Origin: Flavobacteriaceae bacterium
GTDB taxonomy: Bacteria > Bacteroidota > Bacteroidia > Flavobacteriales > Flavobacteriaceae
Assembly (NCBI GenBank): GCA_947457255.1
Contig: CANGUZ010000003.1
Span: forward strand, 1 to 64,000
Reading direction: 5' to 3'
Length of the DNA stretch: 64,000 bases
Shown here in pieces: positions 5,132 to 61,695 of the stretch. The notes under the pieces were generated by a model that made no database searches, was not told where the DNA came from, and worked only from the letters and a program-made list of their open reading frames with translations. Within the stretch, counting starts at the first letter, position 1. The number at the start of each line of letters is the position of its first letter. The translations under genes were made by a program, and so were the position numbers.

Positions 5132-5728
5132 TTATAAATTTTTTAAAGCTTGTTTAATTATTGATTCAACGGTGGCTTCAGAATCTAAATTGACAATTTT
5201 ATCGACTACTTTTTCTGCTAATTTTTTGTTAAAACCTAAAACCTCTAGAGCACATAACGCTTCTTCCTTATTTGTATTGTTTTGAAACATGGAAACTTCA
5301 TCAATATCATATAGTTTTAACACTTTATCTTTTAAATCTAATATGGCTCTTTGTGCGGTCTTCATTCCAATTCCTTTGATGGACTGAATGGTTGCAACGT
5401 CTCCAACTGCCAAAGCTTGAATAATTTGTTTAGGCTCGAGTGAAGACAACATCGTTCTGGCAATACTGGCTCCTATACCAGAAACAGACAATAACATCTT
5501 AAAAATTTCTCGTTCTGACTTTTCTACAAACCCAAATAAAGTATGAGAATCCTCTTTTATTTGTAAATAAGTAAATAATTTTATGGTATCTGTCTGAGGT
5601 ATTAATGAATATGTATGTAAAGAAATATTTACATGATAACCAACACCGCCACAGTCTATAATGACTTCAGTTGGTGTTTTCTCTATTAATTTTCCTTGTA
5701 AATGTGCTATCATTATATGTTTGTGCAA
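5132..5728 (-). CDS. ruvA: Holliday junction branch migration protein RuvA
   Basis: MIAHLQGKLIEKTPTEVIIDCGGVGYHVNISLHT...LLSVSGIGASIARTMLSSL; GIGMKTAQRAILDLKDK HhH motifs. Likely start at the internal Met of MIAHLQGK. Confidence 0.95.
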   Translation of the reverse strand: MHKHIMIAHLQGKLIEKTPTEVIIDCGGVGYHVNISLHTYSLIPQTDTIKLFTYLQIKEDSHTLFGFVEKSEREIFKMLLSVSGIGASIARTMLSSLEPKQIIQALAVGDVATIQSIKGIGMKTAQRAILDLKDKVLKLYDIDEVSMFQNNTNKEEALCALEVLGFNKKLAEKVVDKIVNLDSEATVESIIKQALKNL

Positions 5729-5776
5729 TCAAATTTAACAAAAAATATGAACTGCAATTATTTTGTGAAATTAGGT

Positions 5777-8074: not shown

Positions 8075-8099
8075 TAGAATAATTTTATGTTTCGACCTA

Positions 8100-8107
8100 C
8101 AAAGGTA
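8100..8107 (-). promoter_or_regulatory. Candidate Bacteroidota -7 element TACCTTTG (consensus TAnnTTTG) for maeB
   Basis: CAAAGGTA on + strand = TACCTTTG on -, 26 bp upstream of the maeB ATG (8074). Confidence 0.5.
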
Positions 8108-8295
8108 AAAGTCTAGATGTAAAAAGGAAATTTTTAAGGAGATAGTTTTGCAAAGTTTTCATATATTCTTTGCGGTTTTAAAATACAAATATCAATATAT
8201 TCAAATAATAATTAGTATTGCATCAGTCATAGCAACCTTAATTTTCAAAAAAATGTTTTTTTACACACGATTATTTATTAAAAAGTGACTCTAAA

Positions 8296-11109: not shown

Positions 11110-11156
11110 TCTTTACTATGATAGGCAAACTATTTATTATAGCAAAAGAACATTAA

Positions 11157-11192
11157 AAACAAAAAAGCCCCTCATTTAGAAAGGCTCTTTGA
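11157..11192 (-). terminator. Rho-independent terminator after the sus-like operon
   Basis: On - strand: AAAGAGCC TTTCTAAATGAG GGGCTTTTTTGTTTTT (8-bp stem with one G-U, T-run), just past amylase stop 11220. Confidence 0.6.
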
Positions 11193-11219
11193 TGCTATGA
11201 TAAAAAACTGTTCGTTTTA

Positions 11220-32271: not shown

Positions 32272-32452
32272 CTCTTTCAAAACGGGTGATTAAATTTTCA
32301 AAATGAAAAAATAATCACAATAGCTGTGATAAAAAATTCATTTTGAAAAAAAAATCACAAAAGTTGTGGCAAAATTTTCAGTTCGAAAAAAATGCCACAA
32401 AAAGGAGTAGATATGGGAACTTATTTTCAACCAAATTAAAATAGTCCTATGG
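32272..32452 (+). repeat. Interspersed hairpin-module repeat, copy A (three hairpins + conserved 3' tail, left module absent)
   Basis: CTTTCAAAACGGGTGATTAAATTTTCAAAATGAAAAAATAATCAC..TGTGAT..ATCACA..TTGTGGCA..TGCCACAA AAAGGAGTAGATATGGGAACTTATTTTCAACCAAATTAAAATAGTCCTA. Confidence 0.85.
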
Positions 32453-32564
32453 GAACTTAGGAAAGCTAAGGTGATTCCCATTTTTAGTGTCAAATTCTGT
32501 TGTTGTGGTTTCACGATATTAGAATACTAATGCAGAGAACAAAATGATTACAGCATATTTCATA

Positions 32565-34349
32565 TTACTTTATAATCAATTTAAGTGTGAATTCTTTTAC
32601 TGCATCCACTTTTTTTAAGTACTCATCTATATTTTGTGTAACATAAAAATCAGGTCGAATACCACTATCATCTGGCAACTTTGTGGCAGAAGATATATGA
32701 ACATTATTTGCTATGGAAACAACTAATTTAGTGTGCTTCAATCGACAAAGGGTTTGACCTGCGGTGCAAAATTGATTTGACCCGAGCTCTTCACCGATAA
32801 TGATTCCAAGGTTAAGTGACTTAACCAAAGACATAAAGTGACCTGTTGTTGAATTACCATTTCCGTCTATTAAAAAATATACTTTTCCTTTAAATCGGTT
32901 TGCATTCGGCTGAAAAAAGCCTTCTCCGTATATCGCTTGTGTCTTTTCTTCAAATTCAGATTTTGAGTAATAGACAAATGATTTATCCACAAGGTGTTGA
33001 AGCAAATATATACTTGGATGCTGTGAACCACCACCATTGTATCTCAAGTCAATGATTAAATTTTTAATTTTCTTTTTGTGCAGTTCTTGAATACTTTTAT
33101 CAATAAAAGCATTAAAAACAAGATGTCTATTATCATCCCATTCATAAAAGTTGAAAGAGGAAATAGTCAGAATTGCGGTGTTTTTATCAATAATTTCAAA
33201 ACACAAATTATCAGGACAACTGATAACTGCAGGGTCATACAATTCTGTTGCAAAGTTTTCTGGTTGCTTCAACATTATGGCTTTATTATTTCCTTTTAAT
33301 TTAACGTCAAAAGTGTTTGGTAAACCTAAAGCATAAGGAATCATCAAAGCAAAATACGTGTTAAATTTCTGCCTTCTGTACGTTTCACTATTTGCCTGAG
33401 CTGAGATATGTGGAAAAATATCTGAAATGAGTTTTGGTGTTTCAACGCCATTTATGGATAAAATTTCATCTTTCACTTTTACTTTTTCAGCATTATTCAT
33501 GGGATTAACAACAAACAATTTGCCTTCGATTAACCTCACTTGTAGCGGAAAAGTTTTTTCTAAAGGAACTATACCAAATTCATGATATTCATTTTGCATA
33601 TTTGAGGAAGTCGTATGGGAACAGCCAACACTGGCAATGATGGCGTTACAATGCCAAGCAAATTCAGCATAAGTAGTATTTTCAGTAATCAATGACTTTT
33701 TCGATTCAATATTTTTCCAAAACTGATCTTTCGAGATAAATTTTAGGGGATGGGGATGAATTGCTAACAATTTTTGACCCAGTTGATCCAAATCGGCTAT
33801 GTAATTATCTTTTGAATACACCTTTGAAAATTTTTCTTGAGCTGTTAGCGGCTTAATAGAAGGATATTTAATTCCTTGAATTACATCCTCAGCATGAAAA
33901 TTATCCGGATTCATTTTCAGTGATTTCTCATAATTTTGAAGTGCCCTAGCACTATCTTTTGCTATAAGATAAGCCTCCCCCATACTGTCATAGGCGTTGG
34001 CCGAATTTGGAAATTCAGCAATAATGAGTCCGAAAACTGCAAGCGCATCGACTAAATTGTTTTCATTTAAAAAGGAGTACCCATACAAGGTTAATTCTGT
34101 TTCATTTCTAAAATCATACGATTCAAAATGATTTGCCTTCAATTGATGATAAAGTGCTATTCGCTCTTTTACTGGCAAATGAGCATTTTCTTTAAGCTTT
34201 TCGACAATAGATAATTTTTTCGTGTTGGCCTCTTTGGGTTGTAACGGATTATTTATACTCAAGGTATTTAGCTTATTTCCACACGAAGAGATCAAACAGC
34301 AACTTATAATTGTCAAACAAATTGCAAAAAGATTGGATATATTTTTCAT
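32565..34349 (-). CDS. S41 family peptidase-like lipoprotein with TPR repeats
   Basis: Lipobox ISCCLISSCGN; TPR NAYDSMGEAYLIAKDSARALQNYEKSLKMNPDN; S41 domain KKIKNLIIDLRYNGGGSQHPSIYLLQHL. Confidence 0.85.
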   Translation of the reverse strand: MKNISNLFAICLTIISCCLISSCGNKLNTLSINNPLQPKEANTKKLSIVEKLKENAHLPVKERIALYHQLKANHFESYDFRNETELTLYGYSFLNENNLVDALAVFGLIIAEFPNSANAYDSMGEAYLIAKDSARALQNYEKSLKMNPDNFHAEDVIQGIKYPSIKPLTAQEKFSKVYSKDNYIADLDQLGQKLLAIHPHPLKFISKDQFWKNIESKKSLITENTTYAEFAWHCNAIIASVGCSHTTSSNMQNEYHEFGIVPLEKTFPLQVRLIEGKLFVVNPMNNAEKVKVKDEILSINGVETPKLISDIFPHISAQANSETYRRQKFNTYFALMIPYALGLPNTFDVKLKGNNKAIMLKQPENFATELYDPAVISCPDNLCFEIIDKNTAILTISSFNFYEWDDNRHLVFNAFIDKSIQELHKKKIKNLIIDLRYNGGGSQHPSIYLLQHLVDKSFVYYSKSEFEEKTQAIYGEGFFQPNANRFKGKVYFLIDGNGNSTTGHFMSLVKSLNLGIIIGEELGSNQFCTAGQTLCRLKHTKLVVSIANNVHISSATKLPDDSGIRPDFYVTQNIDEYLKKVDAVKEFTLKLIIK

Positions 34350-34521
34350 TTATTAAATACTTCTTTAATGGTTTCAATTGTTCTCCAAAATTTACTCAAA
34401 TACCACATGTTTTTAACTAAGAATTGATTTCCTGTTCGAACTTTATATGATGTTATTAGCTTGCATTTAGTATTCTTCAGTGGTTGGCTTACATAATCCA
34501 ATCCATAATATTGACTGTTCT

Positions 34522-35484
34522 TTATTCAATTGTCTTCATTCTTTTCGCTTTTTTATTCCAAAGTATTATTTTTTGTTCCATACTTGAGGTTACGATTCTG
34601 GTTCCTTTTCTATTCCAAGAAATTCCCCATAAGTAGTCTTTTGAATTGCCTTCTGAAATAAGATTTCCGTTTATGTCCCATATTCTCAATGCGTCACTTG
34701 CTGATGCAAGTCTATCTCCTTTTGCATTCCAAACCAAATTCCTGTATTCCCCTTTACTAATGTCTATAGATTTTAGAAGTTCGCCTTGTTCGTTCCAATA
34801 TTGAAGTAATGATTTGTCTTTTTCGTCTCCATAGTCTCCGGTTACAAAAAAGTCACCTGATTTGTGCCAAGCAATGCTCAACAATAAAACATCTTCTGGT
34901 CTATGCTTTACTGATTTTAATAGACTTCCTTCCATGTCCAAAAACCGAATCTTGTCACTTACTGTAGTAAGAATGTTTTTTTTAGGATGCCAGGCGATGG
35001 CTGTAATTCCTTTGGTTGAGTTGGCCTGATTTTCAAACTTTCTAATCAACTCGCCATTTATATTATAGATGAATATTTGGCCATCATTGTCTGCAACAGC
35101 TAAATAGTCACCCGTAAAATTCCAATCAATTCCTCTCGCTCCGTCAGGAGAAATTCCGTTTAAATCAATTTTTTCGTTTGAATCCAAATTAATAAGGAAC
35201 GATTTTTCACTCGACATTTGCGTTGCAACGCCAATAATGTTTATTGATGGATGCCATTTAATTCGTGTAATTGTATTGCTTACAGGAAATGATTTGTATA
35301 GTTTTAAATTTGAGCTATAAATAGATAAAGAATCTATATTTCCGCCAATAGCAATTAGTTCTCCGTTTGGGCTCCAATCCGTTGTCCAAAGAATTTCCTT
35401 AGTCTTTTGAGCAAATGCTTGATTACAAAAAATAGTAATCAAAATAGTTAGAAGTCTCAGTATTTGAATTCGTATTGTTATCAT
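34522..35484 (-). CDS. WD40-repeat protein, secreted/periplasmic
   Basis: Signal peptide ...ILITIFCNQAFAQ; repeated GEL-x-WHP/W-x-GD and WSPNGELIAIGG / WNRKGTRIVTSS blades. Confidence 0.85.
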   Translation of the reverse strand: MITIRIQILRLLTILITIFCNQAFAQKTKEILWTTDWSPNGELIAIGGNIDSLSIYSSNLKLYKSFPVSNTITRIKWHPSINIIGVATQMSSEKSFLINLDSNEKIDLNGISPDGARGIDWNFTGDYLAVADNDGQIFIYNINGELIRKFENQANSTKGITAIAWHPKKNILTTVSDKIRFLDMEGSLLKSVKHRPEDVLLLSIAWHKSGDFFVTGDYGDEKDKSLLQYWNEQGELLKSIDISKGEYRNLVWNAKGDRLASASDALRIWDINGNLISEGNSKDYLWGISWNRKGTRIVTSSMEQKIILWNKKAKRMKTIE

Positions 35485-35517
35485 TTTAGTTTTTATAATA
35501 ATTTCTAACTTGTCTTT

Positions 35518-35940
35518 TTACTTTAGAATTTTACTTTTATCAAAAAACACATAATCCAAACTAAAGGTTCCCGATCCTAAAAACAATAGCGAAAGAAACA
35601 AAAGAAAAAAAGTAGAAGCGGTCCCTCCGTTAAAGAAATTCCCATCCGACATATACCATACTATTGTTAGCATCGTCGCCATAAGTGGCACAACTACGAT
35701 GCGAGTAAACAATCCGACAACTAAACAAGCGCCTCCAATCAATTCGATTAATTTGGCTAGCGTTAGCATCATTCGGGGTGCAGGCATACCAACATCTGTG
35801 AGGAACTTGGTATAGTCATTCATCATCGCTTCATCAAAAAGTTCTTTGCCAAACATTATTATTAGTATTCCTGTGCCAATTCGGATTAAAGAAAATCTGT
35901 TTTCCCAAAGAGGTCTCGAAGTAAAAATTTTTGAATTCAT
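35518..35940 (-). CDS. DoxX family membrane protein
   Basis: 140 aa, four TMs, RIGTGILIIMFGKELF...LAKLIELIGGACLVVGLFTR. Confidence 0.85.
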   Translation of the reverse strand: MNSKIFTSRPLWENRFSLIRIGTGILIIMFGKELFDEAMMNDYTKFLTDVGMPAPRMMLTLAKLIELIGGACLVVGLFTRIVVVPLMATMLTIVWYMSDGNFFNGGTASTFFLLFLSLLFLGSGTFSLDYVFFDKSKILK

Positions 35941-36069
35941 GATTTTTTGTTTTAAAAATATTGGACAAAACTATTTGTTCTGCATCCAAAACCGATGAAA
36001 AACTTGTAAAAGAAATGTAAAAAAAGTATAAATTTTTAGTAAATCGCTGCTTGATGTATAATAAAAAAA

Positions 36070-36077
36070 TACTTTTG
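36070..36077 (+). promoter_or_regulatory. Candidate -7 element TACTTTTG 5 bp before ATG 36082 (possible near-leaderless transcript)
   Basis: Matches TAnnTTTG; spacing to the start codon would place the TSS at or near the ATG. Confidence 0.35.
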
Positions 36078-36081
36078 AAGA

Positions 36082-36948
36082 ATGAAACAAAAATACCTTT
36101 TCCTTTTACTCTCCGCTTTATTGGTTTTGTTTGTCGCTTTGTTGTACGCTGATTTTCAGCAACAATCGGAAAATGAGAATCCAAAAAACCAAATCCTATT
36201 GCGAAAACTAGGAGATGAACTACTCCGAAGTTCCAAGGATTCGACCTCTAAAGTACTGCCAATACAAAAAATAGCCGCCAACGAGTTTCATATTGCGTTT
36301 GAAAATCAATTGGCCATTACACCTGATACTCTTGTTGCTATCGTGCAACGCAATCTCAACCAAAGCAGTTTCTCAAAGAATTATGCTGTGCAGGTTATAG
36401 CCTGTTCGACCAAGAAAGTGGTCTATGGTTTTGTACATTCTGCTCATGCCAAAGAAACTGTAATTCCGTGTTTGGGGCGCAAATTGGCCGTAGGTTGTTA
36501 CACGATTGCCTTGCAATTTATTCCGCAAAAAACGATTTTATCAAGGTATAAAACGATGCTCATTAGCGGTATCGTATTGGTGCTTTTGGTATTGCTCTTC
36601 AGAATAGGGTATAAAAAGAAAACGAGAACAATACCTAAGAGTGCAACGGGGGAAACCCTTCAAATAGGGAAATACGATTTTCACTACGAACAACATATTG
36701 TGTACTACGACGGATTAAAAATTCCGTTAACGGTGAAAGAATCGAAATTGCTCTACATTTTCTTTACCTCTCCCAATGTCATCATCGATCGCAACGAACT
36801 GCAAAAAGAAGTCTGGGAAAATGAGGGTGTCATCGTAACCCGAAGCCTAGACATGTTTATCTCCAAACTGCGCAAGAAATTAGATAAAGATCCCTCCGTG
36901 CGCATTGTGAATAGTCATGGTGTGGGTTATAAGTTGGAAGTGGGGTAG
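36082..36948 (+). CDS. Membrane-anchored winged-helix (OmpR/PhoB-type) transcriptional regulator with C-terminal DNA-binding domain
   Basis: N-terminal TM, periplasmic region, second TM (LISGIVLVLLVLLFRIGY), C-terminal LTVKESKLLYIFFTSPNVIIDRNELQKEVWENEGVIVTRSLDMFISKLRKKLDKDPSVRIVNSHGVGYKLE. Confidence 0.88.
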   Translation: MKQKYLFLLLSALLVLFVALLYADFQQQSENENPKNQILLRKLGDELLRSSKDSTSKVLPIQKIAANEFHIAFENQLAITPDTLVAIVQRNLNQSSFSKNYAVQVIACSTKKVVYGFVHSAHAKETVIPCLGRKLAVGCYTIALQFIPQKTILSRYKTMLISGIVLVLLVLLFRIGYKKKTRTIPKSATGETLQIGKYDFHYEQHIVYYDGLKIPLTVKESKLLYIFFTSPNVIIDRNELQKEVWENEGVIVTRSLDMFISKLRKKLDKDPSVRIVNSHGVGYKLEVG

Positions 36949-37033
36949 CGGGATGTATTAGTTTTTTAATTATTAAGGAAGAATGGAAAGTTTTTGAAAA
37001 TTAGGGATGAGGTTTAGGATGTGTTACGAGTAA

Positions 37034-37789
37034 CTAATTTTTTATAATTTCAATTCCGCTACATTCCTCTTTATTTAAAATGTATATTTTATTATTATCT
37101 AATGAACTATAAATATATTTATCACTCACGAAACCTAAAAATTTAAGACAATTCGGATCATTAATTTGAGTTTTATTTTTTGAATCTACAATGTCAAAAT
37201 ATTGCTTTTGTTTATTTAAGTAAATTTTTAGACTCTCAATTTTACCGTTAGAAAAACACGCTATTGGAAAAAAAGTTAGGAAATGACCAATATAATATCT
37301 TAATAAGACATTACTAATTTTAGATTTCACAAAAGGAAAATTAACAAAACGATATAATAAATAATAAGAAAATATTAAACATACTATTTCCCAATAATAA
37401 ATACTTTGACTATGATTTTCTATAAATATTGATAATAAACCTGTCACAAGCATAATCCATAATGGTATTGAACTAATTACACTAATAAATACTTTCTTTT
37501 TATGTGACCAATCTTCTTTTATTTCAACAAAAAAATCTTTGTTTTCAATTTCATTGTTTAAATAAGAAGAATGTAAAACATACTGACCAGTTATCATATT
37601 AACAACAAAATAGGCTTGTGATATCATTAATGGATATACAAAGTTTTTTGGTATATCATATATTGAAATTAGGCTAAAGACATTAATATCAAAAGTGCTC
37701 CAAAAGCCTATAAGATATAAAGAACCGCATACAAATAAATATGTCAAGAGAATTGTTGAGATTGGTATGTATTTTATTATGTCTTTCAA
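37034..37789 (-). CDS. Hypothetical multi-pass membrane protein with cytoplasmic C-terminal tail
   Basis: 251 aa, several hydrophobic spans; STFDINVFSLISIYDIPKNFVYPL. Confidence 0.7.
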   Translation of the reverse strand: MKDIIKYIPISTILLTYLFVCGSLYLIGFWSTFDINVFSLISIYDIPKNFVYPLMISQAYFVVNMITGQYVLHSSYLNNEIENKDFFVEIKEDWSHKKKVFISVISSIPLWIMLVTGLLSIFIENHSQSIYYWEIVCLIFSYYLLYRFVNFPFVKSKISNVLLRYYIGHFLTFFPIACFSNGKIESLKIYLNKQKQYFDIVDSKNKTQINDPNCLKFLGFVSDKYIYSSLDNNKIYILNKEECSGIEIIKN

Positions 37790-37948
37790 TTTAATATTTT
37801 TGGTTTAATTATTTCTATGGTTCCCATGATAGAACTCGTTACGATTTATGGAAATTATATTATCCTTTACTGTATACGAAATTAGGAAAATAAACGCTCA
37901 CGAAACTGAAAATTTAACATTGGAGCTTTTCGGTTGTTGTTCGCAGTT

Positions 37949-38701
37949 TTATTCGCTTTTGAAACTCTCTCCTTTTGTTAACCAAGAAACCCCAAAACAA
38001 ATTAGGGATAAAGTTTCAAAACTAAAAGTTGGCGGTAATCTCCAATCTTTAAAACTTTGAGAAAAGGGCATGGTAGCTACAATTCCCAGCATTGATAGAA
38101 CCATTCCCCATCCACAAAATTTATAAATTCTTATTGCAATTTGGTCTGGATTATCCTTCTTTTGCTCATGTGGGATAAACTTGAAGAAAATTAATGCAAT
38201 CAGCAGGACAAAAAAGATAGCAGCACTGATTAAATGTATAACCCCAATCCAAGGTTGACCAACAATCGCAGGAAATACAAATGATTTTAGGTCATCAGTA
38301 GTATAACATTCCTTTAGAATACAAAGGTCATTAGTAGTTGGAAAAATAACAATGAGTAAAGCCATAATTGCCAATGCTCTACAAATTCCTCGCTCATATT
38401 TATCAGCTCCGTGATAAGTCCACAGGAAAATCGTTAGTAGTAGTAATACACTCGAGAATACTATCTTGCAAGTGCTATGATAATAGTGACTGATTGATGG
38501 TAGGATTGGACTTTCGTAAAATAGAGAGCTTATTAAGCAAATAACAGGCAGAGAAATGCCTAAAAAGCCTATTAATCTACGTAATGTCAAATATGAAAGT
38601 ACAAAACTATCAAACTCAGTAGGATATCCTTCAAGTTCTGTTCTTTCTTTACTTGATTTTGATAAATTTGAATATCTTTTTGAATAACTATTTTTCACCA
38701 A
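37949..38701 (-). CDS. Hypothetical multi-pass membrane protein (DUF998-like appearance), overlaps upstream ATPase gene by 14 bp
   Basis: 250 aa, ~6 hydrophobic spans; PSISHYYHSTCKIVFSSVLLLLTIFLWTYHGADKYERGICRALAIMALLIVIFPTT. Confidence 0.75.
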   Translation of the reverse strand: MVKNSYSKRYSNLSKSSKERTELEGYPTEFDSFVLSYLTLRRLIGFLGISLPVICLISSLFYESPILPSISHYYHSTCKIVFSSVLLLLTIFLWTYHGADKYERGICRALAIMALLIVIFPTTNDLCILKECYTTDDLKSFVFPAIVGQPWIGVIHLISAAIFFVLLIALIFFKFIPHEQKKDNPDQIAIRIYKFCGWGMVLSMLGIVATMPFSQSFKDWRLPPTFSFETLSLICFGVSWLTKGESFKSE

Positions 38702-40010
38702 AATTTAATTTTTGTGGTTTTTCGGAAAACGGTACGCCTCCAAATTTACCATTTAAATAATTTTTTCTTAAATTTAAATCAAATCTAATATTAGGGAAAT
38801 CTGACAAAGGAAATATATCTGACACTCCATCTTTCTTCTCCATTAACCAAATTTCATCCTGACGTACAATTTTTTCATCCATCAAAAGATCTTCATGTGA
38901 ATTGAAAATTAATTGACCTTTTGCACTTCCTAAATTAAACGTCAAATACTGTCCTAACACTTCTTTTAAAAGTACTGGATGTAAACTTGTATTTATGTCA
39001 TCAATAAAATAGTTTACCCCTTCACCATAAGATCTTATGAGTGCTGGAAGTAAATGCAATAATACTATTGTTCCGCGCGATTCCTGATCGACATCAAATG
39101 CAATTGGTCTATTGTTATTATCATAATGAATACATACCAATTTAGCAATTAATATTTCGTCAAACTCATTTTTTAAAGCTGTACAGAAATTTCCTAAGTT
39201 ATCTTTGAATGAATGATGGGTTTTTGTTTGAAGAATTTCAGTAATTTGATTAATTATATCCTTATATTCTATCCCGAGATAAATATTGATTGGGACTAAA
39301 TTTATTTCTAATTTATCAATTCCAACATTTAATGGCTTTATTATATTATTTGCAAGTTGCAAATATTCCTTTTTTAAAGTAAATATATATGCAATATCAT
39401 CAAATTCATAAGTAGGAAATAGAAATTCGACCTTACATTCAAACCAATTTTTAACTAGAGTAATGTCTTCGTCCCTTATAAGTTCAAATGACAATACTGA
39501 TGTATATGGCTGTAATGCCTCAGATAATTGACTCTGAAAATTTTGTAACTTTGTATTATTTGGAAATTCTAAATTATTAAGAGTTCTCTTAAAAATTATT
39601 TGATCACTATCAATTTCAAGTAATTCCTCGTAAATGATTTTACGTGTCTCAGATTCTAAATGTATTTTATAACTGAATATTCTATAATCAATTAAGATGT
39701 CCACTTCTATTTGAATTGGCATATTTGAAATTTTGCTATCCAATTTAAAGGGAGTAAAATTTTTAATCGATTCAACACTTTTGAGAAATTCCTTGTTTAC
39801 TACAATCTGTTGTAAGTAGTACAGTGCTTTAAATAAATTTGATTTTCCAGAACCATTAGAACCATAAATTCCACTTGTTTTCAGGATGCTAAAGTCTTCA
39901 TCTACTGTATGTACATGTTCAGAAAAACGTTTGTAGTTTCTTTGAACAGTATGAAACACTACTCTTCGTTTAAATGATCGAAAATTTTCAATTTCTAATT
40001 TAACTAACAT
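38688..40010 (-). CDS. AAA15/RloA-like ATP-binding protein (COG1106-type)
   Basis: IENFRSFKRRVVFHT; Walker A GIYGSNGSGKSNLFKAL; Walker B-like YFIDDINTSLHP; C-terminal LRKNYLNGKFGGVPF. Confidence 0.88.
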   Translation of the reverse strand: MLVKLEIENFRSFKRRVVFHTVQRNYKRFSEHVHTVDEDFSILKTSGIYGSNGSGKSNLFKALYYLQQIVVNKEFLKSVESIKNFTPFKLDSKISNMPIQIEVDILIDYRIFSYKIHLESETRKIIYEELLEIDSDQIIFKRTLNNLEFPNNTKLQNFQSQLSEALQPYTSVLSFELIRDEDITLVKNWFECKVEFLFPTYEFDDIAYIFTLKKEYLQLANNIIKPLNVGIDKLEINLVPINIYLGIEYKDIINQITEILQTKTHHSFKDNLGNFCTALKNEFDEILIAKLVCIHYDNNNRPIAFDVDQESRGTIVLLHLLPALIRSYGEGVNYFIDDINTSLHPVLLKEVLGQYLTFNLGSAKGQLIFNSHEDLLMDEKIVRQDEIWLMEKKDGVSDIFPLSDFPNIRFDLNLRKNYLNGKFGGVPFSEKPQKLNFGEK

Positions 40011-40149
40011 AATGTGATTTTTTCTCGTGATTTTTTCACTTGGCTAATTTCAAAAAAAAATCTTTACGTTCGACGAAGAAGATGTTAAATTTTGCAGGTA
40101 CATTTTAAGAATTATACCTAACTTATATATTGCTTATAAAATCAAACCT

Positions 40150-40352
40150 GTCAACCCAAATTCGGTTTGATTGGTCATACAAACACCAACATCTATCTTT
40201 CCTAAAGATATTAATAAATTTTCAAAACCTATCACAAAATTTTCAAACTGAAAAAAAAATCACAACTTTTGTGTCAAAAAAATCATTTTGAAAAAATTGA
40301 CACAAAAAGGTGTAGAATGTGAACTTATTTTAAACCAAATAAAATTGTCCTA
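40150..40352 (+). repeat. Interspersed hairpin-module repeat, copy B (left module, two modules, 3' tail)
   Basis: GTCAACCCAAATTCGGTTTGATTGGTC...AATAAATTTTCAAAAC...TTTGTGTCAA-AAAAATCATTTTGAAAAAA-TTGACACAAA AAGGTGTAGAATGTGAACTTATTTTAAACCAAATAAAATTGTCCTA. Confidence 0.85.
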
Positions 40353-40427
40353 ATTCAGGAGATTTAGGATAACGAAGGATAAAATAACATACGTAAAAAA
40401 TAAAAAAACCTCGAACTAGATCATTCC

Positions 40428-41426
40428 TTACTCATTTGGACTATGATACGTATCAAACAAAAACTGCAACGTTTCAGGAATATTATTGGCTTTCATGCTT
40501 GGCAATACAATATTGTTATTCAACCAGTTTTCGATGATGACCTCAAATTTCTTACCCACTTCGTACACCACAGGAACTCCCATTTTTTTTAGCGCTGCAG
40601 CATTGCATTCTTGCTCGTAATGGTTTAGAATAGGAATGCTAAGCACCTTCTTTTTTAGGTACAACGCTTCTGCTGGAGTTTCAAATCCGCCTCCTGTAAT
40701 AATACCGTGGCAGCTGATAAGACTTTCGTTAAAATCTTTTTGATTCACAGGATAAAAAGTAATATTCCCAATTGTTTCAACTTCTTTCACAGTATGCAAA
40801 AACCAATGAAAATGTTGTTGCGGTAGTTTTCTAAACGCTTTTTCCAAACATTCTTTGTCAAACGAAGGCAGGTACACCGTGATATGCCCTAAGTTTTTAG
40901 GATTAGCTAATACAATTTCATCTTTAATAATTGGAGGAAGAATAAACGAGTCGTAGGGTTCAAAATGCAATCCAATGTTTTTAGGCGCGCTGGCATAATG
41001 CTTCAAGATGAGTTCGCCCATCACACTTTTTTTTTCTGGTCTTGGCGTCAACTCCGATACAAAGCTCGCCTGATGGCCTAGCTGTACTGCATGTACCTTT
41101 TGTAGTTTGCACGCTAGCGATGTTATCGAATCAAAATCATTAATAACCACATCATAGTTTTTAATGGGCAATGCTTTGGCTTCTTTGACAATTTGTATTG
41201 GTTTTATGTTCTTTGCAATATTCCAATAGTCTAATCCGCCACACTTGCTGTAATGCAAACTACACCCTTCGCTTCTATATTTCACAGGTAAATCTATCGC
41301 CAAGCTGGCATTGTTACCACTCATGAAAAAATCTACCGTACCAAATTGCTGCAAATAAGGATACAACTGCATCGCTCTACTTATGTGCCCATTGCCAGTT
41401 GCCTGAATAGCATAAAATATTTTCAT
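40428..41426 (-). CDS. Glycosyltransferase (MurG/GT28-like, TIGR00661-type)
   Basis: MKIFYAIQATGNGHISRAMQLYPYL; ISCHGIITGGGFETPAEALYLKKKVLSIPILNHYEQECNAAAL. Confidence 0.85.
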   Translation of the reverse strand: MKIFYAIQATGNGHISRAMQLYPYLQQFGTVDFFMSGNNASLAIDLPVKYRSEGCSLHYSKCGGLDYWNIAKNIKPIQIVKEAKALPIKNYDVVINDFDSITSLACKLQKVHAVQLGHQASFVSELTPRPEKKSVMGELILKHYASAPKNIGLHFEPYDSFILPPIIKDEIVLANPKNLGHITVYLPSFDKECLEKAFRKLPQQHFHWFLHTVKEVETIGNITFYPVNQKDFNESLISCHGIITGGGFETPAEALYLKKKVLSIPILNHYEQECNAAALKKMGVPVVYEVGKKFEVIIENWLNNNIVLPSMKANNIPETLQFLFDTYHSPNE

Positions 41427-41517
41427 AGGGAGAAAATGATTTGTTTTTTAAAAGTCATATGCAATCGCAATATCTTCAATGGTGTATGCTTACGCAAACT
41501 TCTTAAGAGTGGCGATG

Positions 41518-42345
41518 TCATATCTCTTGAGATAAAATTTTCTTAACGATATCTTGAATTTCCTCTTCGTTCACATTAGGCTCCTGCTCTACAAAATCTG
41601 TTTTTTGATATTGATAGATGTGCCATTTCTTTTTGTAGTATTCTAGCGCCGTGAGATTCTCTACCCAGTCACCACTATTGAGGTAAAGCACTTTGCCTTT
41701 TTCATTGGCTATGACTTTCATTTGTGGCTTGTGAATGTGCCCACAAATAACGTAGTCAAATTTCTTTTCGATGGCAATTTCCGCTGCGGTAGTTTCAAAA
41801 TCAGAGATGAAGGCAACGGCTTTTTTCACACCATCCTTAATCATTTTGGAATAACTTCGTTTTTCTTTCCCCAGCAATAACCGAAACCAATTGATGGCAC
41901 TGTTAATCAGGATTAATAAATCATATCCTTTGCCGCCCAGTTTCGCTAGTATCTTGGCATATCCTTTTGTAGAAGAATCAAACACGTCGCCGTGGAAAAT
42001 CCAAGTTTTTTTCCCGTCCAGTTCCAGTATAAGTTTGTCGGCAAGTTCTAGATTACCGAGTACAAAGTCGGAGTATTTTCTCAGGGCTTCATCATGATTT
42101 CCTGTAATATAAATTAACTTTGTGCCTTGGCTCGACATTTTCAAGAGTTGTCGTAGCACGTTCATGTGAGAAGCCGGAAAATAACTTTTGCTAAAATTCC
42201 AGATGTCGATAATATCGCCGTTTAAAACTAAGACTTCGGGTTGAATTGACTTTAAATACAGGAAGAGTTCTTTAGCGTGACATCCATAAGTTCCAAGGTG
42301 TGTATCACTTATCACCACCAACGGAATCTTTCTTTTCTTTTTCAT
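41518..42345 (-). CDS. UDP-2,3-diacylglucosamine diphosphatase-like metallophosphoesterase
   Basis: VISDTHLGTYGCHAKELFLYLKSIQPEVLVLNGDIIDIWNF; YITGNHDE; WIFHGDVFD; VICGHIHKPQ. Confidence 0.9.
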   Translation of the reverse strand: MKKKRKIPLVVISDTHLGTYGCHAKELFLYLKSIQPEVLVLNGDIIDIWNFSKSYFPASHMNVLRQLLKMSSQGTKLIYITGNHDEALRKYSDFVLGNLELADKLILELDGKKTWIFHGDVFDSSTKGYAKILAKLGGKGYDLLILINSAINWFRLLLGKEKRSYSKMIKDGVKKAVAFISDFETTAAEIAIEKKFDYVICGHIHKPQMKVIANEKGKVLYLNSGDWVENLTALEYYKKKWHIYQYQKTDFVEQEPNVNEEEIQDIVKKILSQEI

Positions 42346-42675
42346 TCAGAGTTTTTGCTAAAGTATAATGGATATGTTATTATATTGTTGGCAAAAGTTT
42401 ATTAAACTATTTTATTTTTTGGCTCCCAAAGTGTCTATAGTAAACAAAAGGTTTTGTCTTGTTAAGGAGTTGCTTCACTAAAGTCTACCGCTGCTGCGAA
42501 AAATAATACTATTTTAAATCATTTAAATAAAATGACAAGCAAAATTCAAAAATATGTTTTATTTAAAGCCTTTGCGGCAGTCCTATTTCCTTCCTGCAAC
42601 ATTGTAGAGGGTAATACACAGAAGATATTGAATCAAAGCGGTTTCAAACAATTTTTACTAATTTAGCTAAAAAAA

Positions 42676-43458
42676 ATGCAAATCAAAATTGAAGCCATTC
42701 AAGTGGCAGAATCGTTCAATATCAAGAAATTTCGTGCCGATTTTCAAACAGAAGCTTATTCAGGTTCCATCTCAGAAGTATTTTATAATCTCACAGAAAA
42801 CAACCGCTATTTGTATGTTTTTGATTATGGCGTCGTCGTTTTTGGCAATTATGATACTATTGCAAAAAGCGAATTTGTAAACTTTATAAAAACGTATGCC
42901 ACTACCTTAGTTGAACTTAATTTGGTAGAAGAATACCAAATTTCAATTGACAAAACCATCTTAAAACCGATAGTGAAAAATAGTTATGTTGCTGTAAACA
43001 CTATTGATTCCACAATTTTGCGCATTGTGATGCTCAATATTGGGCAATCTGTAGCATTAGATTATTATGAAGTTTTGACAGATGAGTTAATCAGTTCGTC
43101 CAAACATTACATTTTGCAGTTAGAAAAACAAGGAAAGATTAGCATTTCTAAAACCAATTTGCTAAAATATATCGGTAAAGTATTGAATGTAAAAAATAGT
43201 ATTGTAGATAATCTATATATCCTCGACGATCCGAATATGGTTTGGGACAGCGATGAGTTGAGCCAATTGAACCGCCACCTCAAAGCCAATTTCGACATCA
43301 ACACCCGTTTTAAAGATTTAGATTATCGGCTTCAAATTGTTGAGAATAACTTAACTTTGTTTACAGATGTCTTAAACGTGCGCGAAAGCTCTCGATTGGA
43401 ATGGTTCATTATCATTTTGATTATCTTTGAAATCATCATCAGTTTGGTTTATAGATAG
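42676..43458 (+). CDS. RMD1/DUF155 family protein
   Basis: 260 aa, YLYVFDYGVVVFGNYD...YYEVLTDELISSSKHYILQLEKQGKISISKTNLLKYIGKVLNVKNSIVDNLYILDDPNMVWDSDEL, C-terminal TM. Confidence 0.85.
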   Translation: MQIKIEAIQVAESFNIKKFRADFQTEAYSGSISEVFYNLTENNRYLYVFDYGVVVFGNYDTIAKSEFVNFIKTYATTLVELNLVEEYQISIDKTILKPIVKNSYVAVNTIDSTILRIVMLNIGQSVALDYYEVLTDELISSSKHYILQLEKQGKISISKTNLLKYIGKVLNVKNSIVDNLYILDDPNMVWDSDELSQLNRHLKANFDINTRFKDLDYRLQIVENNLTLFTDVLNVRESSRLEWFIIILIIFEIIISLVYR

Positions 43459-43524
43459 CATTTACTTTTTGAAATTATTAGTGCTATTGATTTTACTTTC
43501 CTTTTAATGTTTATTGTCAAATAA

Positions 43525-43615
43525 AAATTGCTGTGTCTAAAAAATCATTTTGAAAAAATTGACACAAAAAGGAGTAGAATGGGAACTCATTGCAAACCAA
43601 ATTAAAATTGTCCTA
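43525..43615 (+). repeat. Interspersed hairpin-module repeat, copy C (one hairpin + 3' tail)
   Basis: AAAATTGCTGTGTCTAAAAAATCATTTTGAAAAAATTGACACAAAAAGGAGTAGAATGGGAACTCATTGCAAACCAAATTAAAATTGTCCTA. Confidence 0.85.
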
Positions 43616-43753
43616 AGTCAGCATATTTTGGATAGCGGAGTAAAGAGAAATACATTTTTTTTCATCCCGAAGTGAGGAGACTTCGAAGAGGGAGTATTTA
43701 GCAATAGCGTTTAATGCCTGCTATGCGCCGTACTTAATTTTAATCCCATTTTT

Positions 43754-45409
43754 CTATTCCACTCGGACAAATTTTACTCTTTGAATTCTGTCCGAACTTA
43801 ACAAAATCATATTCGGTTTTTCAATTTCTAAAACATAGTTGTCCACTAATAATTTAGTTGGCGTAATTAGAAGTCCTTTAGTAACACCTCGATTTCGGCT
43901 TTTGATTTCATAATAATTATCACTGATGTACTTTATTTTTATATCTACATTTGTTTCAATGTTTCTAAATTTTCCATTAATTGATTTGAAATTGAAATTA
44001 TTCCAATTACTGTTGGATTTTGTCAAAGTATAAGGCGAATGAGAAGTGTAATACACTGTTACTGTCATTTCACCTTTCTCATTTTTTTTGAATTCTTGTT
44101 TAAAATTCTTGTCATAAGTTTGGTTAAAAATATTATCTGCTTCTCTTTCTAATCCTACATCGTTTCGACCAATTCGTTTTAAATATAAAAAGTTGTCACG
44201 TTTTTCAAATTGAAAAGTGTAATTATCTTCTGTTTGATACGTTCCAATTATATCATCATCACTTACAAAACTTCCAATTTTGGTTGGTTTTGTTTCAAAA
44301 TTATTTGATTTTTCATTTAGGTTGAAAACTACATCAACCATTTGTCTAGTTTGTCTATCTGGTGTTGATTTTCCAGTATTTGTGAGTGTAATAAAAGAAA
44401 TTTTATCAGGAAATCTCGTAACTGTTGCTTTCCAAGCACCAGTTGCTCCTTCGTGAAATTTATAATTTAATCCTTTGTAAGTTCCAAATTCTAAACCGTA
44501 GCCATAATTTTTGAATATTGAATTATTCGTAAAATTTTGACTTTCTTCTATTATTGTTTTCTTTATTTGATTGTTTGGTTTTCCTTGAATAATTTGTTCC
44601 CATTCCAATTGGTCTGATAACGTTGAAAATAAATTACCATCTCCGCAGACATTCCAAATCCAATTATATGTTGTCCAAGTGTCAAAATTAAAATAGGCTT
44701 TTGCAATTTGCCCACGAATTTTTCTATGGTCGCTTTCAAAAGATGTGTTTGGCATATTTAATTTTAGAAATAATTCGTTTGTATTTTCAACAAATGTTTT
44801 CCCTGTTACTTTTTCTATTATTAATGCCAATAAAATATAGTTTGAATTACTATACAAATATTTTGAATTTGGTTCAAAATTTAGTTCTTGTTGTTTTTCA
44901 ATTAGTTGTAAAACAGTTTTGTTGTCAAATGAATTTTCCCACCAAGTTAATCCTTGTAATGACCACAAATCATATACATCACGAATTCCACTGGTGTGAT
45001 TAAGCAAGTTTTCAATAGTAAGCTTTGATGTAAGTTTTGGATAAATTGTTGGTAGATATTTTCTGATATCATCATTAAGCCTTAATTTTCCCTCATCAAT
45101 TAGAACAAGAATTTGTAATGCTGTAAACTGTTTTCCGTTTGAAGCAATATTAAATCTAGAATCTTTTGTTATTAGAATACTATCTTTTAAATTCGCAAAT
45201 CCAGCGACTTTTTCATAAATTATTTTTCCATTGCTAACTATTCCAGTCGCAATTCCTGGTGCAGATTTAGGAACGTCCTGTGTTGCAATAGAGTCAAGCT
45301 TTTTTATTTGAAGTGGAGTTAATGTAGTAAGGTTCTGCCCATAAGAAAGAGTAGTTACCATAATAAAGAAGTTCAGGAGTAATGTTCTCATACTATATTT
45401 TTTTTGCAA
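43754..45409 (-). CDS. Serine hydrolase, beta-lactamase/class C family (secreted)
   Basis: Signal peptide; FNIASNGKQFTALQILVLIDEGKLRLNDDIRKYLP (SxxK-like), LLNHTSGI, YSNSNYILLALIIEKVTG (YxN). Confidence 0.88.
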   Translation of the reverse strand: MQKKYSMRTLLLNFFIMVTTLSYGQNLTTLTPLQIKKLDSIATQDVPKSAPGIATGIVSNGKIIYEKVAGFANLKDSILITKDSRFNIASNGKQFTALQILVLIDEGKLRLNDDIRKYLPTIYPKLTSKLTIENLLNHTSGIRDVYDLWSLQGLTWWENSFDNKTVLQLIEKQQELNFEPNSKYLYSNSNYILLALIIEKVTGKTFVENTNELFLKLNMPNTSFESDHRKIRGQIAKAYFNFDTWTTYNWIWNVCGDGNLFSTLSDQLEWEQIIQGKPNNQIKKTIIEESQNFTNNSIFKNYGYGLEFGTYKGLNYKFHEGATGAWKATVTRFPDKISFITLTNTGKSTPDRQTRQMVDVVFNLNEKSNNFETKPTKIGSFVSDDDIIGTYQTEDNYTFQFEKRDNFLYLKRIGRNDVGLEREADNIFNQTYDKNFKQEFKKNEKGEMTVTVYYTSHSPYTLTKSNSNWNNFNFKSINGKFRNIETNVDIKIKYISDNYYEIKSRNRGVTKGLLITPTKLLVDNYVLEIEKPNMILLSSDRIQRVKFVRVE

Positions 45410-45457
45410 ATATTAATTTTCACAAAATATAATTCGCTTTAAATCGTGATTTGGTTC

Positions 45458-46675
45458 CTATTTTTGGTAATGTTTTTCAATATATTCTTTTGGACTTAAT
45501 GAGGTCGCTCTTTTAAAAGCCCTATTGAATGTAGATTTTGAGTTAAAACCACATTCCAATGCAAGGCTAAGTAATGTTTGTATACTATGTTCACCTTTTT
45601 CAATTTTATCTAGTAATGCTCTTATTCTATGGTTATTTACAAAGTCATTAAAGTTCAAATTGAATCCTTGATTAATAACCTGTGAGACTTTTTTAGAATG
45701 AGTATCTAATTTGATACTTAGATCTGAAATTACAAGTTCTGGATTTTTATACATTTTGTCAGTTATCATTAGAATTTCTATTTTTTCTTTCCATTCATGT
45801 AAATCCAGTATTTCAATTTTGTCATCTTTTAGATTGTCTCTATTTAGAGTTGTTAAAGTGAACTCTTTTTTAAAGCCATGATTGGTTTCAAGATTTAAAT
45901 CGGTATCGGAATTTATAGGAGCTCCTTTAAAAGAGGTTACGGAATATATTGAATTTGCATAACCACTAACAGATATAAAGTAAAAAAGTATAGAGAAACA
46001 GACATAATACCAAAACTTATTTCCAAATTCATCCCATTCAGGATTCAACATAAAAAATAATATACGAATAAAAATAAGTGTCAAAAATGCGAATAAAAAT
46101 CGTTTGGCCCATTTAAACATTACCGATTCAGCAAAACTCACTTCATTATAAGTTATCCTTTTATAATTATAGTAAGTTTTGAGGCTTTTTAACAAATAAT
46201 AGCTTAATAATAATAGCCCAGCTATCTGATACCACAATGAAAAATCTCTGTCTTTTCCATCTTTATAAAAATAATATTCATTCAAAATTACTTTGTCTGA
46301 AATGAAAATGATGAGTGAATAAATCAGATAAATTGATGCAGGTATAAAATGAATGTAATTTTTTCTCGAAAACCGGAATGACTTATCAAGCAAAGTTTTA
46401 AAGTAAAAATATAAGACTGGAGGTAATACAAATAATTGTTGAAATGGAATATAAAAAAGAATATCTCGATAAGGTTGATGGGAATACCAACCAGCATAGC
46501 CTAGCATGAAAGGAGCTATATAGAAGGAGCATAAAATTGTAAATAAACTAAGCCAAAGACTTGACTTAGTTTCGGTTTGCAACCCTTTTATAAGTAGTAG
46601 CGTGGAAAAAACAATTCCATGTAAAAAGAAAATAAGTAAAATCGAACTTTTTAAACTAAACGAAAAAAGCATCAA
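45458..46675 (-). CDS. AraC family transcriptional regulator with N-terminal multi-TM domain
   Basis: C-terminal LSIKLDTHSKKVSQVINQGFNLNFNDFVNNHRIRALLDKIEKGEHSIQTLLSLALECGFNSKSTFNRAFKRATSLSPKEYIEKH. Confidence 0.92.
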   Translation of the reverse strand: MMLFSFSLKSSILLIFFLHGIVFSTLLLIKGLQTETKSSLWLSLFTILCSFYIAPFMLGYAGWYSHQPYRDILFYIPFQQLFVLPPVLYFYFKTLLDKSFRFSRKNYIHFIPASIYLIYSLIIFISDKVILNEYYFYKDGKDRDFSLWYQIAGLLLLSYYLLKSLKTYYNYKRITYNEVSFAESVMFKWAKRFLFAFLTLIFIRILFFMLNPEWDEFGNKFWYYVCFSILFYFISVSGYANSIYSVTSFKGAPINSDTDLNLETNHGFKKEFTLTTLNRDNLKDDKIEILDLHEWKEKIEILMITDKMYKNPELVISDLSIKLDTHSKKVSQVINQGFNLNFNDFVNNHRIRALLDKIEKGEHSIQTLLSLALECGFNSKSTFNRAFKRATSLSPKEYIEKHYQK

Positions 46676-46760
46676 TATCTATTTTTTATTGGATTAGAAT
46701 TTATGGTTCTCATAGAATGGCATAAGACTCGTTTATAGGTCGGACAAAATTATATGTTTC

Positions 46761-47003
46761 AGCCCAACTTTGAGTAGATTGGTCGCACCAACAACAATGT
46801 TTGTCTTTCTCAAATATATTAATAAACTTCCAAAACGGGTGACAAAATTTTTAAACTGAAAAACAAATCACAAAAGTTGTGGCAAAAAAATCATTTTAAA
46901 AAAAATGCCACAACTTCTGTGGCAAAAAAATATTTTTGAAAAAATTGCCACAAAAAGGAGTAGAATTGGAACTTGTTTTAAACCCAATTAAAATAGTCAT
47001 ATT
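46761..47003 (+). repeat. Interspersed hairpin-module repeat, copy D (most complete: left module, three hairpin modules, 3' tail)
   Basis: CAGCCCAACTTTGAGTAGATTGGTC...CTTCCAAAACGGGTGAC..; GTTGTGGCA..TGCCACAAC; TGTGGCAA..TTGCCACA AAAAGGAGTAGAATTGGAACTTGTTTTAAACCCAATTAAAATAGTCATA. Confidence 0.88.
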
Positions 47004-47131
47004 GGAAATTAAAGATTAAGTGAGCCTAAACTTTTGTTTAAATACTCCCTTTGCCAGTATAAATCCAACTTTAAATTAAACCAAAAACTCCAATTTTTTA
47101 AAACGGCGATTGGAAGTTGCGGTATTTTCAA

Positions 47132-50402: not shown

Positions 50403-50966
50403 TTATGTTTTTTTTAATCTACTCAAATGAATCGATGTAATTCCTAAGTAGGAAGCAATCATATGTTGTGGAACACGGTTATGAATGTTTGGGAAAACCT
50501 CAGAAATGCTATCGTAACTTTCTTTTGGAGTTCTGCAATAGTTGTTTTTGATGCGATTGTCTTGATAAATATAATAATACTCCGCAATTAATCTACCCAT
50601 TTTTTGGCCTTCCTTAAGATTTTCGTAACCCCAATCTATTGTGGATTTTGGAATAATTATAACTTCTGTTTCTTCAAGTGCTTCAAGGGTGTAAATGGAT
50701 TTTGATTCTTCAAGAAAGCTTGTATAATCTACAATAAATTGATTTTCTAACGCAAAATGAATAGAATGTTCCGTACCCTTGTTGTCAATAATTTTAACTC
50801 TAATAATTCCTTTGTTGATGAAAAAGATTTCTGTTGCAATTTCGTTTGGTCTACTCAAAACTTCTTTTTTCATAAAAGTTTTGGTTGTACAGTCACGCAA
50901 GAAATTTTCCATTTCACTTTCAGAAATAGTTATGAGTTGCTTTATGACTTCTTTTATTTGTTTCAT
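50403..50966 (-). CDS. Crp/Fnr family transcriptional regulator
   Basis: cNMP-binding-like FINKGIIRVKIIDNKGTEHSIHFALENQFIVDYTSFLEESKSIYTLEALEETEVIIIPKS and C-terminal RVPQHMIASYLGITSIHLSRLKK HTH. Confidence 0.88.
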   Translation of the reverse strand: MKQIKEVIKQLITISESEMENFLRDCTTKTFMKKEVLSRPNEIATEIFFINKGIIRVKIIDNKGTEHSIHFALENQFIVDYTSFLEESKSIYTLEALEETEVIIIPKSTIDWGYENLKEGQKMGRLIAEYYYIYQDNRIKNNYCRTPKESYDSISEVFPNIHNRVPQHMIASYLGITSIHLSRLKKT

Positions 50967-50991: not shown

Positions 50992-51099
50992 TACTACCAA
51001 ATTGGGTAGATTGGTCAATCAAAACAACACTATCTACTTTTCTCAAACATATAAATAAACTTCCAAAACGGGTGACAAAAATTTGGTTTGAAAAAACTA
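50992..51099 (+). repeat. Interspersed hairpin-module repeat, copy E (left module only; truncated at the TspO stop codon)
   Basis: CTACCAAATTGGGTAGATTGGTCAATCAAAACAACACTATCTACTTTTCTCAAACATATAAATAAACTTCCAAAACGGGTGACAAAAATTTGGTTTGAAAAAACTA; aligns with the left module of copies B and D. Confidence 0.8.
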
Positions 51100-55441: not shown

Positions 55442-55535
55442 CGATTGGGTTAGCCCTGAAAGCATTGAAAATCCTACGCTTTTGGGCGTAGATTGTAACG
55501 GATAGCAGGAATAGCTCCTTAAAAACCGAATCTAA
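55442..55535 (+). other. Intergenic structured element (…TTAGCCCTGAAAGC…CTACGC-TTTTGG-GCGTAG…GGATAGCAGGAATAGCTCC)
   Basis: Central CTACGC/GCGTAG stem with flanking GC-richer segments; resembles elements I recall between genes in Flavobacterium genomes (recollection only). Confidence 0.45.
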
Positions 55536-61646: not shown

Positions 61647-61695
61647 AATCGTATGATTAAATTTTGAGGTACTCGACCTCTGTTAATTAAGGGCG

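Follow-up and report, generated by a model that had tools for sequence, protein, structure and literature searches.

The 64,000-nt stretch analysed here (the window; positions 1 to 64,000 of contig CANGUZ010000003.1 in the Flavobacteriaceae bacterium assembly GCA_947457255.1) carries five related modules, A to E, built around short inverted repeats. An earlier note had described seven of these repeats as hairpins under selection for structure. All seven arm pairs are present, perfectly complementary and separated by loops of 19–23 nt. We read the arms, with a probability of about 0.83, as predicted double-stranded half-sites for a family of helix-turn-helix (HTH) proteins from Flavobacterium. 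The modules and their elements are listed below, units being given without a strand.

32274–32459 (+): module A, three 35-nt units followed by the 3' flank, with a truncated 5' part; shares 81% identity with module D across 186 nt
32285–32319: unit A1, arms GTGATTA/TAATCAC
32325–32359: unit A2, arms TGTGAT/ATCACA
32365–32399: unit A3, arms TGTGGCA/TGCCACA
40138–40352 (+): module B, 5' promoter-side part, two units and 3' flank; 78% identity to D across 168 nt
40230–40264: degenerate unit of module B, preceding unit B2
40270–40304: unit B2, arms TGTGTCA/TGACACA
43519–43615 (+): module C, single unit at 43532–43566 (TGTGTC/GACACA) and 3' flank, 5' part lost
46740–47015 (+): module D, complete, comprising the 5' part, three units and the 3' flank
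46811–46818 (−): TATATTTG, candidate −7 promoter element (TAnnTTTG) recognized from the alignment, between array D and the gene at 46675; putative function
46838–46872: unit D1, degenerate arms GGTGACA/AATCACA
46878–46912: unit D2, arms TGTGGCA/TGCCACA
46918–46952: unit D3, arms TGTGGCA/TGCCACA
51002–51084 (+): module E, 5' promoter-side part and one arm remnant only; 82% identical to D

Modules A to D can be aligned over up to 186 nt with 78–85% identity, flanks included. Units of the form TGTGNN...NNCACA with a span of 33–37 nt occur six times in the window, as compared to an average of 0.29, and never more than 2, in 100 dinucleotide shuffles. Two further features, absent from the earlier note, are a unit length from TGTG to CACA of exactly 35 nt in every window unit and a unit-to-unit spacing of exactly 40 nt. 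The loop core TCATTTTGAAAAA, previously taken to be conserved, is exact in three of the seven loops and near in two, whereas the loop differs in the units at 32286 and 32364. Because other species keep the arms but have unrelated loops, the loop common to some window copies appears to reflect recent duplication within this genome. Modules A and C lie between convergent genes. The other three are upstream of minus-strand genes: B precedes an AbiLi-like gene (38688–40010; AbiLi match with E=7e-65, PADLOC), D an AraC-like gene (45458–46675) and E a Crp-like gene (50403–50966).

Extending the analysis to 400 Flavobacterium genomes, we found TTGTGGCA-N20-22-TGCCACAA in 26 of them and in none of the reversed controls. 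Many of these TGTGGCA arrays are tandem, with a period of 40/41 nt and unrelated AT-rich loops. The genus-wide unit is TGTnnnN-N21/22-NnnnACA, 35/36 nt long with a period of 40/41 nt; the tandem period also separates the arrays from unrelated palindromes in the 26-genome set (loci L073/L086/L088; L070/L075 and kin; L071/L087/L114). In seven genomes (G000, the genome of the window, and G100, G121, G226, G235, G265 and G385), one array ends a few tens of nucleotides before the start of a previously undescribed HTH gene. A profile built from these array-adjacent proteins detected the family in 59 of the 400 genomes, with up to six copies each. In a sample of 100 HTH genes with upstream DNA, a TGT...ACA unit is present within 420 nt upstream of 77. 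Palindromes with a span of 35–36 nt number 43–44 upstream of these genes versus about 2.5 in shuffles (~17-fold), and those with a span of 21 are enriched as well. The arms differ from one HTH gene to another, including TGTGGCA, TGTGTCA, TGTGACA, TGTTTCA, TGTTGCA, TGTAGCA, TGTTATT, TGTGATT and TGTGAGC among others. Co-occurrence across genomes points in the same direction: the HTH family is found in 11 of 14 genomes with tandem TGTGGCA arrays versus 48 of the other 386 (Fisher 8e-8), and the association holds when all 26 array genomes are counted (Fisher p=4e-4).

The arms of a unit change together. Among 86 units picked by their end letters and register only, ignoring pairing, the inner triplets of the arms (bases 4–6) match in 50, compared to 9.6 expected; 2000 permutations never gave more than 18. 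The arm covariation reported for the window thus holds genus-wide. Mixed arrays, which carry more than one arm type, reveal which element is symmetric, as 44 of 67 units match internally compared to 18 of 42 junctions between units. In the L113 array (GGC|GAC|GAC|GTC|GTC), for example, the arm type mostly switches between units. According to these data, the 35/36-nt unit is the symmetric element and not the 19-nt junction; the junction palindrome (19 bp with a 5-nt gap), considered as the true operator, is disfavoured by the mixed arrays even though palindromes of span 21 are enriched.

We then related the arm bases to the protein columns of 73 non-redundant family members by mutual information. 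Base 5 peaks with residue 30 (z=15.8) and residue 34 (z=10.0), base 6 with residue 26 (z=15.0), and base 4 with residues 27 (z=11.9) and 31 (z=11.8), whereas protein columns outside the recognition helix reach z values of about 5 or less. Shared ancestry alone would lift all columns. The correlations translate into simple rules. At base 6, Arg26 goes with C and Lys26 with T. At base 5, Ala or Gly at position 30 goes with A, and Ser30 with G or T, depending on residue 34 (Ile/Leu for G, Ser for T). At base 4, Ser/Thr27 goes with G, Ala/Gly27 with T and Leu31 with A. Applied to held-out members, the rules named the correct arm in eight of nine genes having an array; three more genes had no detectable array. 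Site bases co-vary with the recognition-helix residues of the cognate protein, as is characteristic of an operator, and the two arms most likely change together because two copies of one protein read two identical half-sites.

The rules also connect genes and sites within single genomes. At least two TGTAGCA units occur in 8 of 14 genomes with a Leu31 member versus 4 of 45 others (p=4e-4), and six TGTAGCA units occur in genome G219, where no array was detected at the Leu31 gene itself. Counts of TGTTTCA were not used, as the chance background is ~0.8 per genome without the HTH family. The genome of the window (2.06 Mb, 65% complete) encodes two members, a TGTGGCA-type protein on contig C8 and a TGTGAGC-type protein on contig C19. 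The helix of the former, RTQWSMYEI, predicts TGTGGC, which is the main arm type of the window. The C19 member has the TGTGAGC arm, as do arrays on C9 (TGTGATA, TGTGATA, TGTGAGC) and C62 (TGTGAGC); a further TGTGGCA array lies on C8.

The HTH family itself is almost only found in Flavobacterium: a search of 298 genomes from 91 genera across the order gave matches in six Flavobacterium genomes and one other, the latter weak. The protein comprises ~175 residues, with an N-terminal XRE-like HTH followed by a coiled coil or long C-terminal helices. AlphaFold2 predicts a four-helix HTH with helix 3 at residues 26–33, then a 54-residue helix and more helices (predicted local distance difference test score, pLDDT, 95.4). 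Searches of Pfam and NCBIfam gave no model above its own cut-off for the family, the nearest Pfam model being HTH_19 (E=9e-7, just under its cut-off). In Foldseek, the nearest structures are C.BclI and C.AhdI, with C.Esp1396I also retrieved; E-values are weak, the probability is near 1 and the match covers the HTH part only. Restriction-modification (R-M) controller proteins are also among the nearest PDB sequences. On the predicted model, the family would thus be of the XRE/Cro-CI type, having an HTH fold with helix 3 as the recognition helix. The genes are stand-alone rather than part of R-M operons, with a minority of neighbours matching restriction enzymes or DNA methylases.

The arrays sit beside candidate promoters. 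A sigma54-like motif, TGGC[AG]-N5-TTTG, precedes 36 of the 100 HTH genes compared to 0.05 expected, at a median position of −47. Its spacing is fixed at N5 and its last base varies (C/T/A). The motif agrees with the sigma54 −24/−12 consensus (PMC12316311), and a sigma54 motif has been reported in F. psychrophilum (PMC9723704). With GG-N10-GC in place and RpoN detected in 11 of the 12 genomes examined, all but the incomplete genome of the window, these sites are predicted −24/−12 promoters. If the promoter call is right, their location at the gene-proximal end of the array places most of the array upstream of the transcript, where it would act as DNA. The overlap may also account for some unit mismatches, because the last left arm would also serve as the −24 element: in L160 (GTC/GTC, GTC/GTC, GGC/GTC), the last left arm reads TGTGGCA where it would double in this way. 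A second candidate element, TAnnTTTG on the minus strand, lies between the array side and the gene in modules D and E and also in the C8 copy that precedes the STAND-like NTPase gene, where TATATTTG is kept; in module B it is degenerate. The genes downstream encode the AraC-like protein (D), the Crp-like protein (E), the 2025-residue STAND-like NTPase (C8) and the AbiLi-like operon (B).

Array-gene association, arm symmetry, helix-base correlation, held-out prediction and position just upstream of sigma54-like promoters constitute the computed support for our interpretation, in which the repeats would be dispersed operator arrays of small, self-associated HTH proteins. Each 35/36-bp unit would offer two inverted 7-bp half-sites ~21 bp apart, with units repeating every 40/41 bp, and each half-site would be read in the major groove of ordinary duplex by the recognition helix (residues 26–34) of one protein copy. 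The protein may bind as a dimer or higher oligomer via its C-terminal helices, and binding beside or over the promoter would control its own gene, most likely negatively. We consider such autoregulation probable. For the window, the TGTGGC/TGTGTC modules are the presumed sites of the C8-encoded protein of the same genome, with the AbiLi-like operon, the AraC-like gene and the STAND-like NTPase gene on C8 as putative targets. The arrangement suggests a small regulon including defence genes; we would give about even odds to the predicted regulation of neighbouring window genes through the modules.

Several observations weigh against this interpretation. No unit was found within 420 nt upstream of 23 of the 100 HTH genes under the criteria used, and three genomes (G415, G424 and G436) have tandem TGTGGCA arrays and no family member at E<1e-6. 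The TGTGAT units of the window have no cognate HTH gene in the 65%-complete genome. Dispersed arrays are also found away from promoters, as modules A and C and about one-third of those inspected elsewhere lie between convergent genes. The HTH protein has no AAA+ domain with which to act at a sigma54 promoter, and a half-site gap of 21 bp is unusual for an XRE-type dimer. Finally, the correction in the mutual-information test extends only to near-identical proteins, with the low non-helix scores serving as its control for shared ancestry.

The alternative that survives best leaves the arms as HTH sites and is compatible with the operator interpretation, holding that the dispersed arrays are sponges, chromosome-organising sites or self-spreading modules. 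It would fit the 78–85% identity of the modules including their flanks, the occurrence of dispersed arrays in tandem, convergent and divergent intergenic gaps alike, and an array that two species share together with its flanks (87% across 1650 nt). However, the conserved TAnnTTTG between array, or array remnant, and gene in D, E and the C8 copy argues for a regulatory role, and we regard this variant as a serious though less than even possibility.

Transcribed units selected as RNA hairpins, the first of the folds proposed earlier, would equally yield covarying arms, and the predicted RNA fold of array D is better than that of its shuffles (z=−4.9). Yet the compensatory changes expected of a structured RNA are present with no excess of G-U among the mismatched units (9 G-U, 5 C-A, 33 other), and they are equally explained by half-site identity. 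In addition, the sigma54-like promoters at the proximal end of the array, ~47 nt before the ATG, would leave most of it untranscribed, a search of the window against Rfam gave no match over the arrays, and pairing leaves the tracking of arm bases by helix residues unexplained. An RNA hairpin is therefore very improbable. The only Rfam matches in the window are a Flavo-1 RNA (55448–55516, +) and an S16-Flavobacteria leader (61656–61687, −).

The other proposed fold, a cruciform or single-stranded DNA hairpin that is extruded and then recognised, fares no better. It would accommodate the perfect arms, and since the stem is itself duplex, base reading by an HTH is formally possible. Several single units fold stably as single-stranded DNA and better than shuffles, as any palindrome would. 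But 7-bp AT-rich stems with ~21-nt loops make poor cruciforms, units persist in which two valid half-sites are mismatched at A-G or T-C, and HTH proteins of related fold (nearest C.BclI, C.AhdI and C.Esp1396I) bind linear duplex. We thus give little credence to extrusion. Selection does keep the arms matched, as the earlier note held, but no fold is implied, since the variable bases track the HTH helix residues; nor is gene-conversion-like maintenance of the arms needed as an explanation. R-scape, put forward there as the refuting test, could not have separated a fold from protein half-sites.

Least probable are selfish repeats of the repetitive extragenic palindromic (REP) type, moved by a REP-associated tyrosine transposase (RAYT/Y1). 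Bacteroidetes carry such systems with atypical structures (PMC6006769), the palindromes are clustered and dispersed between genes, and the genome of the window has two Y1_Tnp matches; but G100 and G121 have arrays and no Y1_Tnp match, the transposase loci inspected lack such units, and no shared tetranucleotide tag lies beside the arrays, whereas GTAG/CGTC at one hairpin end defines REP elements (PMC3733652). This origin was rejected after the Y1_Tnp search and flank inspection. Integron attC sites are improbable, their consensus boxes being absent. Short hairpins at the junctions, with T following on the minus strand, could act as intrinsic terminators, but the placement of arrays in front of promoters speaks qualitatively against this as their main role.

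Additional observations concern the surroundings of the arrays. On C8 (locus L109; C8:34000-52000), positions 5251–12300 hold the HTH gene, its array, the divergent NTPase gene and a single unit after the NTPase stop. This block sits between an RNA methyltransferase gene and uvrB and looks like a defence cassette with flanking repeat units. In the window, 37034–40010 (−) comprises the AbiLi-like ATPase gene and then two unknown genes of ~250 codons, with module B upstream, and is a candidate defence operon. After the last unit, the module 3' flanks (e.g. 32403–32439) contain AAGGAG and then a short frame opening with ATG, ATGGGAACTTATTTTCAACCAAATTAA in module A. In the C8 copy the HTH gene begins at this place, and the frame may be what is left of an HTH gene since lost. 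Other palindromes were encountered in the genus. In L114 (G157 C23:384000-395000), TTGTGGCAC..GTGCCACAA palindromes at 5703, 5974 and 7630 flank a tyrosine-recombinase-like open reading frame (6207–7517, −); they form a different family and may serve this recombinase as recombination sites. Several Flavobacterium genomes also have larger palindromes of the type TTATGGCAATTTTGTGGCA...TGCCACAAAATTGCCATAA and kin, near 1500 in L084/L085/L091 and L070/L075/L078/L079, which are apparently unrelated to the HTH arrays. A 34-nt unit, TTGTGGCAG..GCGACC..GGAAGC..TGCCACAA, near 1500 in L073, L086 and L088 (three genomes), is distinguished by its GC-rich loop.

Searches of open-access papers turned up no earlier account of these repeats or of the HTH family. 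Dozens of paralogous regulators with matched operators amount to a natural experiment, offering a near one-residue-one-base recognition table for XRE-type HTH proteins. They also expose a general trap: significant arm covariation in dispersed palindromes is no proof of an RNA or DNA fold, because two identical half-sites for one protein covary alike. More tentatively, and with rather more doubt than confidence, we propose a genus-level family of mutually orthogonal, fast-diverging HTH proteins, each reading its own dispersed array repeat through a near one-residue-one-base code, with the protein-DNA pair spreading and diversifying as a unit in a REP/RAYT-like manner, the transposase being replaced by a DNA-binding protein.

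Among known systems, the Xre-RES autoregulator of Pseudomonas putida is likewise an XRE-fold protein on its own promoter, which it represses, apparently via more than one site (PMC12204516); it differs in belonging to a toxin-antitoxin pair and in lacking a tandem array of wide-spaced units. GntR and IclR regulators co-evolve with their motifs, the residues that contact DNA changing in step with the bases of the palindromic operator (PMC4494728, PMC8222616), but the Flavobacterium sites are tandem with a fixed unit, precede the gene of their own protein and occur dispersed as well, and the family is almost restricted to a single genus. REP/RAYT systems share dispersed, clustered extragenic palindromes and a cognate protein gene with copies of its own, whereas here the cognate protein is an HTH and not a Y1 transposase, the GTAG tag is missing and the geometry is fixed. 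The R-M controller (C) proteins C.BclI, C.AhdI and C.Esp1396I have an XRE-type HTH and the nearest predicted fold. C proteins are small regulators of ~80 residues whose binding sites, likewise repeated inverted half-sites, lie upstream of the genes that encode them, but they lack the long C-terminal helices and their half-sites are close together. In contrast, the Flavobacterium half-sites are ~21 bp apart in units repeating at 40/41 bp, and only some members of the family lie beside R-M genes.

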